Notes: generated by a model not told the origin, from the letters alone. A stretch of DNA of 64,000 nt from SAR202 cluster bacterium (GCA_009391535.1 VFHP01000024.1:1-64000), one strand, 5' to 3'. Shown: positions 32,892 through 38,721, numbered from the stretch's first letter. Made by a program: numbers and translations.

Positions 32892-33125
32892 CTAGCAACA
32901 GTTAGCCCCGCCACAATTGCATCCTCCGGATTCCATGCCTGCCATAACTTCAGCAGGTATTCTATCTCCTCCTGGAGATTTTGTAATTGATGCGAATAAA
33001 GACAATGTTCTAGATGAAAGAGTCCCACAGTCTGGACAAGGAGTTTTCTCCTGAGAGGTTTGCATGGACTGTATTTTGTCGAAACGATTTTTGCAAGTAT
33101 TACAGAGATATTCGTATATTGGCAT
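32892..33125 (-). CDS. FmdB-type zinc-ribbon protein
   Basis: A 77-residue protein with the FmdB opening MPIYEYLCNTCKNRFD and a second pair in CPDCG, together a four-Cys zinc ribbon, followed by a tail ending in GGCNCGGANCC with four more cysteines. The FmdB family was first named from formamidase operons and is widely assumed to be regulatory; its role here is unknown. Convergent with the membrane gene, 7 bases apart. Confidence 0.85.
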   Translation of the reverse strand: MPIYEYLCNTCKNRFDKIQSMQTSQEKTPCPDCGTLSSRTLSLFASITKSPGGDRIPAEVMAGMESGGCNCGGANCC

Positions 33126-33204: not shown

Positions 33205-33522
33205 TCAAGGGTAGTCAAAAATGCTTATAGCTATTAATTTATCTGCAGTGCTTTCATAGAAGACTTTTATTGCTTGATTATTGTTCATGTGCCATTCTAG
33301 GTGATCAGGGGTGTTGAAATCTATGATACCTGTGGTGTGAAAAACCCATGTTTTACTTTTACCATCCTTTATGACAAATAGTTGTATCTCTTCTTCATTA
33401 CGTTCTTCCACTTTAATTACGGAGCCGTGAGTACTGCCAAAAGTGTCGCTTGTTCTATCGCACCCATAGGACGACGAAATTAGAATAAGACAGGATATGG
33501 TAAGTAGAGTGCGTTTTAACAC
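33205..33522 (-). CDS. Small lipoprotein at the end of the copper operon
   Basis: A 105-residue protein that starts LKRTLLTISCLILISSSYGC, a typical lipoprotein signal with a YGC lipobox, followed by about 85 exported residues of alternating beta character (SVIKVEERNEEEIQLFVIKDGKSKTWVFHTTG). I choose the GTG at 33522, with AAAGGA ten bases upstream and a 5-base gap from the preceding stop; the longer frame to 33564 would overlap that gene and place hydrophilic residues before the signal. Family unknown; position suggests a role in copper handling. Confidence 0.62.
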   Translation of the reverse strand: MLKRTLLTISCLILISSSYGCDRTSDTFGSTHGSVIKVEERNEEEIQLFVIKDGKSKTWVFHTTGIIDFNTPDHLEWHMNNNQAIKVFYESTADKLIAISIFDYP

Positions 33523-33527
33523 TTGTA

Positions 33528-35075
33528 TCAAGTCCTTTCTACAATGGGTTGGGCTATTATCCACAAGCTCACGGCTGTGTAACCTACCATTAGTACTAAC
33601 ATCGGATACTGACTCATCAATGCTTTTGACCTATCCTTTATGTTTCTTATTGCCACTATATGGGCAATATATACTGCTATTACGTGCCCAGTAACTATGG
33701 ATATTACGGAGGTGATCCAAGCGAATCTGGGTCCCACGATATATGTATTTACCTCATAACTTTTTGTGTTTATGAGGTCCCATCCTAAACCGAAAGGATC
33801 AGATATAAGAGGTATTATTAATTGCCCTTGTATTAATATATAGGTCAGATAGTGAGACAAATGGTATGCTAGAGCGATTGGTATTAGTGAGTATATAAAA
33901 AGTCTGCAGACTGTATTTGTTGAAACACCAGGCATGGACAGGTTGGCCATGGTTTTGCAAAATACTTGATAGATTATATAAAAGATTATTGGAAAAAAGA
34001 AAAGACCTACGCTATTTATTGCTACTATAGCGTTCCTTCCAAACAAGAATGAGAATGTGTCAAACATGGAATCTAGTACCGATGCCCATAGTGGAGTTGA
34101 TGTAAATCCATCAAAAGTCACTACAGCCAACAGTATTAATACAAAATACATTCTGGAAATATCAACATCTTGGCTGGATAATAGACCAACTCCATATGGT
34201 CTAAGGTTGATCTGCCTATCAAGGCTTGAGGAAACCGAGAAACATTGGTAGCAGTCCCTGCAGTATTCTTGGACGTTGCACTCTGTACACTGGGTGCAAA
34301 CGGTCGTGTTTTTGGATGCTATTTCTATTGGGGAGAACTTAGACAAAAATTGAAAAGCTATCGAAAATGGGTCACAGCGCGCAATCCATTGATTTTTTCC
34401 AATAAGATACATGCCTGACCAGGTTATGATTGAATATAAAATTACTAGATATGCGATGGTTCTCGGCAAGTAGGAGGTCGGATATATCAATTCAAACCAG
34501 GAGAATATAAGAAACAATAATAAACCCGGCCATATTCCTATTCCGGCAGGCAATATTAGTCGAGGGTTTTCGTCCTGCTTCCCATAGAATGTGTTGTGTA
34601 TATACTCAAAGAAGGTAAAGATATTGCGCCATGGGTTAATTAACGGCCAAATGTTTCCTATGAGTGCAGAAATAAATGCAATTCCTACCCACCAGATTAT
34701 CCATACGAATGTAGGTGTCATATTGCCGAACGGATTTTGATCACCAAATAATCCACCTAAGATAAGCAGGCCAAGTAATATAGAGGAAGTTGTTCTTAAG
34801 AAATATATGAAGTAGGTGCTGGTAAATATTGCTAAATATTTAAATTTAAGCAAATTGATCTTAGGATAAGTATCAACACCCGGCGACAGCTTTACGAATA
34901 ATCCTATTAGTATGAAGGATAAAGCTACAGTGGCACCACCACCATAAATATACAACCAAAGTGGAAGCGGAAGGTTATATTTTTCTCCAAAACCATGGGC
35001 ATAAACAGGTTGAATATTTACAATGAATAAACCAATTAACAGAAATAGTAATTTGTTTTTAGCTAGGAAAGTCAT
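33528..35075 (-). CDS. Multi-pass membrane protein with a six-cysteine loop (fenitrothion-hydrolase-like)
   Basis: A 515-residue protein with a cleavable-looking signal (first 26 residues, ending VYA-HG) and roughly 11-12 membrane helices. The exported start HGFGEKYNLPLPLWLYIYGGGA resembles the integral membrane proteins annotated as fenitrothion hydrolase in Actinobacteria. A loop holds Cys260, 263, 266, 272, 275 and 278, a symmetric CxxCxxCx5CxxCxxC pattern, with Cys234 nearby, suited to binding metal. It sits in the CsoR-controlled operon with copA and a YHS protein, so a copper-related function is inferred. No catalytic signature is certain. Confidence 0.65.
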   Translation of the reverse strand: MTFLAKNKLLFLLIGLFIVNIQPVYAHGFGEKYNLPLPLWLYIYGGGATVALSFILIGLFVKLSPGVDTYPKINLLKFKYLAIFTSTYFIYFLRTTSSILLGLLILGGLFGDQNPFGNMTPTFVWIIWWVGIAFISALIGNIWPLINPWRNIFTFFEYIHNTFYGKQDENPRLILPAGIGIWPGLLLFLIFSWFELIYPTSYLPRTIAYLVILYSIITWSGMYLIGKNQWIARCDPFSIAFQFLSKFSPIEIASKNTTVCTQCTECNVQEYCRDCYQCFSVSSSLDRQINLRPYGVGLLSSQDVDISRMYFVLILLAVVTFDGFTSTPLWASVLDSMFDTFSFLFGRNAIVAINSVGLFFFPIIFYIIYQVFCKTMANLSMPGVSTNTVCRLFIYSLIPIALAYHLSHYLTYILIQGQLIIPLISDPFGLGWDLINTKSYEVNTYIVGPRFAWITSVISIVTGHVIAVYIAHIVAIRNIKDRSKALMSQYPMLVLMVGYTAVSLWIIAQPIVERT

Positions 35076-35119
35076 CAGGAAAACTTGTCCTCAGGCATGC
35101 AATCGTATTAGGTTTGTTG

Positions 35120-35689
35120 TTATTTCCTTTTCAGCTTTCTAAAGTACCACGAAATTGATATTAATACTGGAAGTGAAGAGGAGAATACCAAAACTATTCC
35201 CCAATTGAAATTTTCTGGATAGACTTCTAGTGGCATTAAGAAGTTAGTGATTTCTTCGTTTTCAATTATTTGACCTTCTAAATACCAGGTCCCCTCTTGG
35301 TTTAAATTAGCCGAAAAATCGTACCAATTGGAATACAGAGGGTCTTTTACCAGTTTTTTCTGTCCGATGAAAATATTTTCAGGTGACGGACCAATTAAAA
35401 TTACATCAACTGATAGATTTTCAGCGGGCGATTCATCCTTGATGTAGTTAAACACCATAGAAAAATGCATGTTTCCTTTTCTAATTTCAGTTGGATAAGA
35501 ACGAAGTTCTATTCTGTAATCACCCTCTGTGATCTCTAGTATTGTTGCGGTTTTACCATTTGCTTGAGCATAAGAGGCAATGTAAAAAAATACTGCTAAA
35601 ACCGATACAATAATTAAAACCGGTCTAAGATAACGTATTGGTAGTTTTGGTATGGGGCGGTGGTTAGTAGTGATCACGGCTGGCTTCAT
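35120..35689 (-). CDS. Membrane-anchored beta-rich protein (YtkA/FixH-like) in the copper operon
   Basis: A 189-residue protein with an N-terminal membrane segment (about 22-42), an exported domain of about 110 residues made of short strands (YRIELRSYPTEIRKGNMHFSMVFNYI, WYDFSANLNQEGTWYLEGQI) and a C-terminal helix (about 165-185) with a KLKRK tail facing the cytosol. This layout is like YtkA/CopC-type sandwiches that bind metal or chaperone it outside the membrane, but the few Met and His residues give weak support. It begins exactly where the YHS gene stops (TAAATG). Confidence 0.55.
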   Translation of the reverse strand: MKPAVITTNHRPIPKLPIRYLRPVLIIVSVLAVFFYIASYAQANGKTATILEITEGDYRIELRSYPTEIRKGNMHFSMVFNYIKDESPAENLSVDVILIGPSPENIFIGQKKLVKDPLYSNWYDFSANLNQEGTWYLEGQIIENEEITNFLMPLEVYPENFNWGIVLVFSSSLPVLISISWYFRKLKRK

Positions 35690-35896
35690 TTACATTTGTA
35701 TTTTTTTGGATCCAGTCAAATAGGATTGCGGTTCTTTGGAAAATGCTACCCTACAACCGGGACCACAAAAATAGTACGTCACAGTTTCGAACTCGTACTT
35801 CCCTCCAGGAGGGTTTTGTGTAATGACATTCATATCGCAAACTGGATCTATTGCGGTTTCGTGATTTCCTGTCTTATTAAATAGAGGTAGTTTCAT
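35690..35896 (-). CDS. YHS-domain protein
   Basis: A 68-residue protein with one YHS domain: AIDPVCDMNVITQ, followed by YEFETVTYYFCGPGCRVAFSKEPQSYL with a CGPGC pair. YHS domains occur at the end of copper ATPases or as separate proteins beside them and bind copper or related metals through their cysteines. It lies 17 bases after copA and probably passes copper to or from it. AAAGGAATCAT precedes the ATG. Confidence 0.85.
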   Translation of the reverse strand: MKLPLFNKTGNHETAIDPVCDMNVITQNPPGGKYEFETVTYYFCGPGCRVAFSKEPQSYLTGSKKIQM

Positions 35897-35913
35897 ATGA
35901 TTCCTTTAGGGAA

Positions 35914-38373
35914 TTATATTCTCCATCTTTGTAATCGTAAAGAGTTGCTAATTACGGTTACTGAGCTAATGGCCATAGCTGATGCTGCCATTATAGGGTT
36001 CAGGAAACCGAATTCGCCAATCAAAAAGTTTAGAGATACAGGAACAGAGCCATCGGAAAAGAGTGGATAGAGCACTCCCGCTGCTATCGGTATTAAGGCG
36101 GTGTTATAAAAGAATGCCCAGAAAAGATTTTGTTTTATAATTTGGATAGTAACCCTACTAAGTTCGAACGATTTTTGCACATCTAATAGGTTGTTATGTG
36201 TAATTACTATATCGGCTGATTCTAATGCTATTTCAGACCCAGTTGATATTGCTATACCTACATCTGCCTGGTTGAGGGCAGGGGCATCGTTTATTCCGTC
36301 TCCGATCATAGCGACTATCTTATTCTTGTCCTGTAAATTCTTTACTGTAGCAATTTTTTGTTCAGGGGATGCTTCTGCAATAACATTTGTTATACCCAAT
36401 TGTTGAGCGATAGTATTGGCAGTTATTTGATTGTCCCCTGTTAGCATTAATACCTCTTTATTTCTAGTTTTGATCCATTCTATCGTGGCATTTGCTTCTG
36501 GTCGTAATGAATCTGCTAATGAGATCATACCTATAAGCTGATCATCCATGGTTACAAACACAGCGGTTTGTCCTTTAGAGGAAGAGACTTCCCATGTAGT
36601 TTGTAGATCAGAAACATCATATAGTGATTGATTCATCATATAGTGGTTTCCTATGATTATTTGTTTACTATCTACTTTTGCTGATACTCCTTGGCCTGGC
36701 AAATATTCAAATTTATCTGGATATACAAAATCAACCTTTTGTTTCTTGGCATAATCCACTATAGCCTTACCAATAGGATGTTCCGATGATATTTCAGCAG
36801 AACATGCTAATGAAACGAGTTGTTGTTCTGGTATTGAAATAGGATGAACTTCGACTACTTCTAATAAGCCTAGAGTTAGAGAGCCGGTTTTATCGAATAT
36901 AACTGTATCCGCATGTTGTAGTCTTTCCAGAGCTTCGGCACCTTTGATCAATATGCCATTTTCAGCACCTTTGCCTATTCCTGCTATTATTGCAGTAGGA
37001 GTCGCCAGTCCTAGTGCACAAGGACACGCAATTATCAACACAGCTGTCATGTTCATCAGAGCATTAGTAACGATTGGTGCAGGTCCTACAATCATCCATG
37101 TGATCAAGGTGATTAATGACAGTGAGATTATTATTGGGACGAAATAACTCGAGATAATGTCTACAGTGTGTTGTATCGAAGCTTTGGATCCTTGAGCTTC
37201 TCTTACTAGTCTAACGATGTTGGCGAGTACGGTCTGGGAATTTGGTTTGGTAGTCCTAATTATTAGCACGCCTTGTTGGTTTATTGTTGCGCCAAATACA
37301 TTGGATTCGACTGTTTTGTCCACTGGTAGACTTTCTCCAGATATCATGCTCTCATCTACAGTTGAATAACCTTCAATTATCAACCCGTCGACGGGTATGC
37401 TTTCTCCTGGTCTTACTACAATCACGTCTTCGACCATAACTTGATCGATAGGAACGATTTCTTCGATATTACCCTTCAGTACATTGGCAGTTCTAGGTTG
37501 TAATGCAATCAACTTCCTCAATGACTTTGAGGTATTGCCTTTGGTACGGGATTCAAGATAGCGACCTAATAAAACTAGTGCAATTATCATATTTGATGTA
37601 TGGAAATGGACTTCATCTCCTGAGATAAGATTAGGCATAAGTATTGAAGCCATACTATAGAAGTAAGCAACGGAAGTGCCTAATGCAATCAATGTATTCA
37701 TATTTGAAGTTCGATGTTTTAGAGCATTCCATGCACCCCTATAAAATTGTGACGCACACCAAAATTGCACAGGTGTTGATAGAGCCCAAAGAATATATGG
37801 GTTTTGGAAGTGTGATGGGGCCCAAGAAAAAATAGCTTGCATGCTCAACACGAACGTCAATAATGCCACACAAATAGCAATGTAGAGCTTCCATTCTACA
37901 TCTAAGAGGGCATTATTATATTTTCTATAGTCGTTATTGACAGTTGTAATAATGGAATACCCGGCTTCAGATACGTTTTTGTTGACTTCTTCTAAGAAAT
38001 GTGCAGTGTCAAGGTGTTCTATATATGCCTGGTCCGTTGCTAAATTGACTGAGACGTTCAAAACAGATGGGATGTTTTTTATTGCGTTCTCGACATGTAA
38101 TACACAAGCGGAGCAGGTCATTCCTATTATATCTACACTTGTATTCTCTGTTTTGGTATCGTAGCCTGCTTCTTTAATAGCGTTCAATATTTCTATCGTC
38201 TGTGGTTGTGAACCCGGGTTGAATTCTACAGACGCATCCTCTACTGCCAAGTTGACTACCACAGACGAAACTCCCTCAATGCTTTTGATAGCATTCTCCA
38301 CATGTAAAACACAGGCTGAACAGGTCATACCCGTTATAGGTAATATTAATTTTTGTGAATTTAAGCTTTCCAT
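35914..38373 (-). CDS. copA: Copper-translocating P1B-type ATPase
   Basis: An 819-residue P1B ATPase that pumps Cu(I) out of the cytosol. Two N-terminal heavy-metal domains each have GMTCSAC (Cys18/21 and Cys87/90). Eight membrane helices hold the transport motif CPC (Cys450-Pro-Cys452). The phosphorylated Asp494 is in DKTGSLT (usual DKTGTLT). The HP motif [10 protein letters not shown] and [18 protein letters not shown] complete the ATPase core. It follows csoR with a 13-base gap; its own ribosome site is weak, consistent with expression from the csoR promoter. Confidence 0.95.
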
Positions 38374-38386
38374 TTTTGTACCACAG

Positions 38387-38653
38387 TTACTTGGAATTCA
38401 AGTTATATAGTTCGAGCAATTCTTGTAGCACTTGATCATCTCTACCTTCTTTTACACCGGAGATTACACAACTATGTAAATGCCCGTCTAGAAGCTTAGA
38501 TTCCAATTTTTCTATTGCTCGTCTAACGGCATAGGTTTGTTTCAGTATATCCACACAATATTTCTCTTCGGATATCATTTTCCTGATGCCAGATAAATGC
38601 CCTTCTATGTAACTCATTCTTTTGAGAGATTCTACTTTAGTGTCGTTTATCAA
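38387..38653 (-). CDS. csoR: CsoR-family copper-sensing repressor
   Basis: An 88-residue all-helical repressor. The copper ligands are present with the exact CsoR spacing: Cys33, His58 and Cys62 (25 and 4 residues apart, as Cys36-His61-Cys65 in Mycobacterium). [16 protein letters not shown] is the DNA-binding N-terminal helix. Cu(I) binding should release it from the operator at 38672-38692. The start is TTG, with AGGAGGA six bases upstream. First gene of the operon csoR-copA-YHS-three unknowns. Confidence 0.92.
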
Positions 38654-38671
38654 TGTAATCCTCCTGTAACC

Positions 38672-38692
38672 GTACCCACCGGGGATGGGTAC
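38672..38692. promoter_or_regulatory. CsoR operator: inverted repeat GTACCCA-N7-TGGGTAC
   Basis: Perfect 7-base arms around a GC-rich 7-base centre (CCGGGGA), matching the known CsoR operator style (G-tract dyad in a GTAC-flanked repeat). It lies immediately after the -10 element of the csoR promoter, covering the expected start point, so CsoR bound here would shut off its own operon. Confidence 0.75.
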
Positions 38693-38721
38693 ATGTTAGC
38701 TTATTGCAGGATAAACATCAA
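38693..38721 (-). promoter_or_regulatory. Promoter of the csoR-copA operon
   Basis: Read leftward: TTGATG (38716-38721), a 17-base spacer, TAACAT (38693-38698), directly abutting the operator. The promoter begins ten bases after the stop of thiI, so the copper operon is independent of the upstream genes. Confidence 0.65.

Follow-up and report, generated by a model that had tools for sequence, protein, structure and literature searches.

What does the membrane protein encoded by the fifth gene of a copper operon in a SAR202 cluster bacterium do, and is the operon around it a copper system of its own? The operon lies in a 64,000-nucleotide stretch of DNA (GCA_009391535.1 VFHP01000024.1:1-64000; hereafter the window), and the protein, for which we use the working name FenH, is the one that the first-pass annotation had linked to 'fenitrothion hydrolase'. 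How copper changes hands once it is out of the bacterial cytoplasm is little understood, and new components of that process are rarely found. FenH is probably a hitherto unrecognised component of the copper-handling machinery outside the cell membrane, because its usual neighbours across bacteria and archaea are copper-binding exported proteins. It belongs to a widespread membrane family for which we found no curated family, solved relative or described function, and whose genes are tightly linked to that of an exported protein of copper type; FenH and its cupredoxin partner, more than the CsoR operon, are what makes the locus interesting. The coordinates and gene calls of the first-pass annotation proved correct, and the operon with its control region is laid out as follows:

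38721-38693, minus strand: candidate promoter TTGATG-N17-TAACAT, identified by eye, agreeing with the consensus at 8 of 12 positions
38692-38672, minus strand: operator GTACCC-N9-GGGTAC, a perfect palindrome with 0 mismatches
38653-33205, minus strand: six open reading frames head to tail, csoR-copA-YHS-YtkA-like-FenH-lipoprotein
38653-38387, minus strand: csoR, gene of the copper-sensing repressor, with a TTG start codon preceded by AGGAGG
38373-35914, minus strand: copA, Cu(I)-exporting P1B ATPase (TIGR01511, 579.9 bits against a cut-off of 397)
35896-35690, minus strand: YHS-domain protein of 68 amino acids (PF04945, 32.1 bits against a cut-off of 30.3)
35689-35120, minus strand: YtkA-like protein of 189 amino acids, earlier called 'FixH-like', whose exported domain has transmembrane helices at both the N and the C terminus
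35075-33528, minus strand: FenH, a polytopic membrane protein of 515 amino acids
33564-33205, minus strand: small lipoprotein-like protein, an orphan, whose true start may be the GTG at 33522

FenH was found in 42 of 60 relatives and in 83 of 301 Chloroflexota genomes, mostly SAR202/Dehalococcoidia; other phyla were sampled through a plasmid collection, which is an uneven sample. In the relatives, FenH commonly follows the YtkA-like gene, with the gene of a small exported cupredoxin-domain protein directly upstream of it. Domain profile searches placed this cupredoxin gene directly upstream of FenH, often with an overlap of 4 nucleotides, in 57 of 101 loci, which were pooled from several, partly overlapping searches and are counted as loci, not as independent lineages. 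The pair forms a conserved two-gene unit that spans Chloroflexota, alpha-, beta- and gammaproteobacteria and Actinobacteria. Presence of the cupredoxin is associated with presence of FenH (34/42 relatives with FenH versus 0/18 without; Fisher p 1.7e-9, uncorrected for kinship), and 29 of the 35 places where the cupredoxin occurs are within 1.5 kb of FenH, with two more at contig ends fitting the same arrangement. The partner conserves three histidines, a tyrosine and an aspartate in the pattern HxHGYD...H, of which HxH, the tyrosine and the later histidine are invariant, and has no conserved cysteine; the type-1 cupredoxin ligand set of a cysteine and two histidines is not present in it. The Cupredoxin_1 domain was matched by 16 of 18 partner members, and among proteins of solved structure the partner comes closest to nitrosocyanin, CuA domains and laccases. 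A CopC-CopD-cytochrome c fusion takes the place of the cupredoxin upstream of FenH in 12 loci, and well-supported tree branches force at least three changes between the two partners. Three further loci (L096, L102 and L118) have a large beta-propeller-like protein directly upstream of FenH instead of the cupredoxin.

Plasmid-borne FenH genes of distant relatives also have copper genes around them. The cupredoxin-FenH pair of Mycobacterium dioxanotrophicus and M. chubuense NBB4 is found with copper membrane monooxygenase (CuMMO) genes CAB, of which AmoC was confirmed by Pfam, and with a sigma factor annotated as SigC. A link to copper acquisition has been drawn for the SigC of M. tuberculosis (PMC7924339), of which the plasmid sigma factor may be an orthologue. 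CopC and CsoR are encoded near FenH in M. gallinarum, PCuAC adjoins it in Sulfitobacter, and a metal P-type ATPase lies nearby in Haloarcula. Since mycobacteria with FenH next to copper monooxygenase genes can be cultured, and FenH also occurs in cultured Kangiella shandongensis, its function can be tested in the laboratory. The mycobacterial copper monooxygenase cluster also encodes, at L109:13643-13939, a short single-helix protein that starts with MMQQVYLAHGG and has the FenH-type AHG motif.

The neighbour of FenH in the window, the YtkA-like protein, likewise has copper proteins among its relations. Its family profile matched CrdA of H. pylori (E 4e-6), PF13115 (YtkA) was matched by 12 of 28 relatives of the protein, and its structural model (predicted local distance difference test, pLDDT, 89.6) is closest to CrdA (9ll2; Z 13.5, root-mean-square deviation 2.3 over 103 residues). 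The protein earlier labelled YtkA/FixH-like thus shares both fold and profile similarity with the CrdA/YtkA-like copper proteins. It differs from CrdA in being anchored by transmembrane helices and in lacking the copper motif of CrdA, the methionine-rich MMxEMPGMxxMxEM (PMC9182242), methionines being found at positions 1, 74, 78 and 152 only. In 26 loci, the gene in front of the YtkA-like one encodes a small, membrane-anchored protein rich in histidine (DHHFAERxPxHxH), for example at L070:11189-11605 and L056:1446-1898; this protein is possibly a further metal-binding member, and the single member scanned had no family match.

The first-pass annotation had derived a role in copper binding, delivery or oxidation outside the membrane from a shared copper-dependent control. 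This inference is supported, and on evidence that does not depend on the shared promoter: the cupredoxin pairing, the CopC-CopD-cytochrome c fusion, the CuMMO, CopC, CsoR and PCuAC neighbours and the CrdA/YtkA fold all bear it out. Its conclusion on copper was correct and now has stronger grounds than it first had.

What, then, is FenH itself? Pfam gave no convincing match in any of 54 FenH members, a single member having a stray hit, and a sequence search of the PDB gave none either. The model of the window protein is confident (pLDDT 91; predicted template modelling score, pTM, 0.89), a Foldseek comparison of it with the PDB returned nothing at E<=0.001 (best E 0.09), and the other fold matches (VIA Z at most 5.3) were scattered, weak and helical; judging from the model, a new fold is possible. 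Invariant residues in an alignment of the 54 sequences include His27, Met222, Asp322, His408, Gln418, His464 and His472; the last helices contain three of these, His408, His464 and His472. His27 sits at the predicted signal-peptide cleavage site, AxA|HGFG. CopC proteins likewise have a histidine at this position, and hhalign against CopC-CopD detects just that stretch. A free N-terminal histidine in FenH is not certain, since actinobacterial members keep the AHG motif without a full signal peptide. We rejected FenH as a CopD (no PF05425 match; hhalign probability 0.2% against the CopC-CopD set), as the Caa3 assembly factor CtaG (no PF09678 match; hhalign probability 0.1% against one CtaG) and as a hydrolase (no hydrolase family match and no relevant paper found), which leaves the 'fenitrothion hydrolase' label unsupported. 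The same genome encodes a second FenH, about 49% identical (L090, G000:C10, 115-2422), with a cupredoxin gene upstream and the gene of a major facilitator superfamily transporter beyond.

We consider the chance slightly better than even that FenH is a membrane copper-handling protein acting on the external side of the cytoplasmic membrane, whose version in the window is wired into a CsoR/CopA efflux operon. Under such a scheme, CopA would pump Cu(I) from the cytoplasm outward, and the membrane-anchored YtkA/CrdA-fold protein (elsewhere the Cys-less cupredoxin or CopC-CopD) would hold or present copper outside. FenH would accept this copper through exofacial His27 and intramembrane His408, His464 and His472, and would then either move it across the membrane or pass it to exported copper enzymes. 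A rise of Cu(I) in the cytoplasm would make CsoR let go of the operon, and FenH would thereby work while cytoplasmic Cu(I) is high. Copper binding by FenH, the direction of transfer and the client enzymes are what we infer here. More tentatively, and at well under an even chance, FenH may found an undescribed family of membrane copper transporters or metallochaperones with its own fold and a dedicated Cys-less cupredoxin, present in Chloroflexota, Proteobacteria, Actinobacteria and Haloarchaea; exported enzymes, among them the copper hydrocarbon monooxygenases of mycobacteria, would then receive their copper from it.

Several observations weigh against a copper function of this kind. Control by CsoR implies expression at high copper, a poor fit for an importer. 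FenH copies on haloarchaeal plasmids stand beside PF10634 Iron_transport (P19/FtrA) and Dyp-peroxidase genes, some alphaproteobacterial copies lie in nicotinate or other catabolic clusters, and several FenH genes (e.g., L040, L042, L049 and L067) have no evident copper partner. The linkage of FenH to copA/csoR is limited to one bacterial family, in which a second genome, G003, has no CsoR. The Met-rich motif of CrdA is absent from the YtkA-like protein. Finally, a heme-copper oxidase, an obvious client, was not found in the assembled part of the genome, which is 89.6% complete.

A functional parallel in outline is YcnJ of B. subtilis, a CopC-CopD-YtkA protein that imports copper in support of oxidases and depends on one extracellular and one transmembrane histidine (PMC13344008). 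The FenH arrangement resembles both YcnJ and ccoGHIS in pairing exported copper carriers with a polytopic protein that has conserved histidines. YcnJ and the FenH system each combine an exported copper-binding domain, a polytopic protein with a key transmembrane histidine and a YtkA domain, and some FenH loci have the adjoining CopC-CopD-cytochrome c fusion. Unlike YcnJ, FenH has no detectable relation to CopD and no CopC domain, and its operon is headed by CsoR, not YcnK.

The haloarchaeal loci raise the alternative that FenH is a ferrous-iron permease served by a cupredoxin ferroxidase, like FtrC-FtrB (FtrABCD) or EfeU-EfeO, with copper merely the cofactor of the partner. FtrABCD has the same logic of an exported cupredoxin beside a membrane permease (PMC11966278), the P19/FtrA-like and Dyp-peroxidase neighbours in haloarchaea recall FtrABCD/EfeUOB, and the model of the YtkA-like protein also resembles FetP/P19/FtrA (Z about 11-12). 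FenH, however, is not FTR1-like: it has neither an FTR1 Pfam match nor an RExxE motif, and we rejected it as a member of the FTR1/EfeU permease family. Its identifiable neighbours are mostly copper-related, CopC-CopD, CuMMO, PCuAC and CopA/CsoR all indicating copper, and a CsoR-type operator heads the operon in the window. We therefore regard an iron permease as unlikely.

The same low credence goes to a transmembrane metalloreductase or electron carrier like CcoG/FixG, in which electrons would pass from a cytoplasmic Cys cluster through intramembrane histidines (perhaps with heme b) to the exported cupredoxin or cytochrome c. The ccoGHIS genes encode a copper ATPase, FixH and the cupric reductase CcoG and deliver copper to cbb3 oxidase (PMC7558416), and copA, the YtkA/FixH-like gene and FenH mirror this fixGHIS logic in that one unit encodes a copper ATPase, a small FixH-type anchored protein and a polytopic protein that has a Cys cluster. 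The partner of FenH alternates between a cupredoxin and a cytochrome c-bearing protein, and His408 and His464 could share a similar membrane depth, as suggested by the helix positions in the model. A weak NapH match (residues 193-267 of the window FenH, E 7e-4) points the same way, but was present in 1 of 54 members. About a quarter of the close family, and also the second FenH of the same genome, have no counterpart of the Cys cluster of the window FenH (260-278), and the partner cupredoxin lacks the type-1 cysteine ligand. FenH also lacks the two 4Fe-4S motifs of the CcoG/NapH polyferredoxins, having no CxxxCP and no Cys cluster conserved across the family. Further differences from ccoGHIS/fixGHIS are that CopA is here controlled by CsoR and that oxidase genes are neither nearby nor found in the assembly.

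COX1, COX2 and CtaG were all not found in the genome assembly, through either a missing contig or real loss. COX2 is present in three genomes of the same family (G002-G004), and close relatives have CtaG too. We rejected FenH as an assembly factor tied to the heme-copper oxidase on the pattern of co-occurrence, which lends it nothing: COX2 and CtaG each occur in at least 55 of the 60 relatives regardless of FenH, and neither is in this assembly.

The copper operon had been read as complete and as expected. For csoR-copA-YHS this stands, but the conservation that it implied does not: among 75 FenH neighbourhoods, csoR and the lipoprotein accompany FenH in the window only. A six-gene order shared across relatives is thus ruled out, csoR and the lipoprotein being lineage-specific, and the notion of a conserved six-gene operon was wrong or too strong. 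In G003, a genome of the same family, the order at the same chromosomal place is asd-dapA-thiI-copA-YHS-YtkA-FenH-Zn ribbon-Lit-polA, with neither csoR nor the lipoprotein at the locus and no CsoR anywhere in the genome; identity between syntenic counterparts is 50% for CopA and 59% for the YHS protein. Of the three genes expected to follow copA, the YtkA-like gene and FenH do so behind copA-YHS in G003, whereas the lipoprotein is absent there, and most relatives show no such order. The copA-YHS-YtkA-FenH set recurs only in G003 and is thus a unit of a single bacterial family; the control of the FenH operon by CsoR is an addition or a local remnant. A quick tree separated the FenH proteins of the window and G003; joining them gave a better likelihood and was not rejected (p-AU 0.57), so we do not claim separate origins of the link to copA. 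A csoR unique to the window lineage and a copA-FenH adjacency confined to one family would suit the insertion of a standard CsoR-CopA-YHS efflux operon in front of genes unrelated to it, with FenH as a passenger of other function, e.g., a hydrolase. Such a history is improbable, given that FenH has copper-type neighbours independently in several phyla, occurs together with the cupredoxin and matches no hydrolase family.

CsoR matches PF02583 (78.8 bits against a cut-off of 22.8, E 4e-22) and keeps the Cu(I) triad Cys33/His58/Cys62 with H-x3-C spacing, and CopA has GMTCSAC metal-binding sites at 15 and 84, CPC at 450 and DKTG. Intergenic distances are, in operon order, 13, 17, 0, 44 and -37 nucleotides, and all six genes are presumably co-transcribed. 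The operator, GTACCCACCGGGGATGGGTAC (38672-38692), is a GC-tract palindrome at csoR's own promoter; a palindrome search of the window found GTACCC-N9-GGGTAC this single time in 64 kb. It is placed between the promoter and the csoR ribosome-binding site, 18 nucleotides from the csoR start codon. Of the promoter and operator first proposed, the operator is perfect, whereas the promoter is a weak consensus match that falls below the scan threshold, promoter-like sites in the region being at about chance level. Promoter and terminator scans across the operon were likewise near chance.

The lipoprotein matched no family at curated cut-offs and had no relative in the 75 FenH neighbourhoods. Its membership in the copper system, as first proposed, is tied to the operon by position only, and a start at the GTG at 33522 would abolish its 37-nucleotide overlap with the FenH gene. 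The operon is bordered by the gene of a Lit-type lipoprotein intramolecular transacylase (PF07314, 32162-32884) and a Zn-ribbon gene (32892-33125), which hold the same place in G003 and are near FenH in other relatives too.

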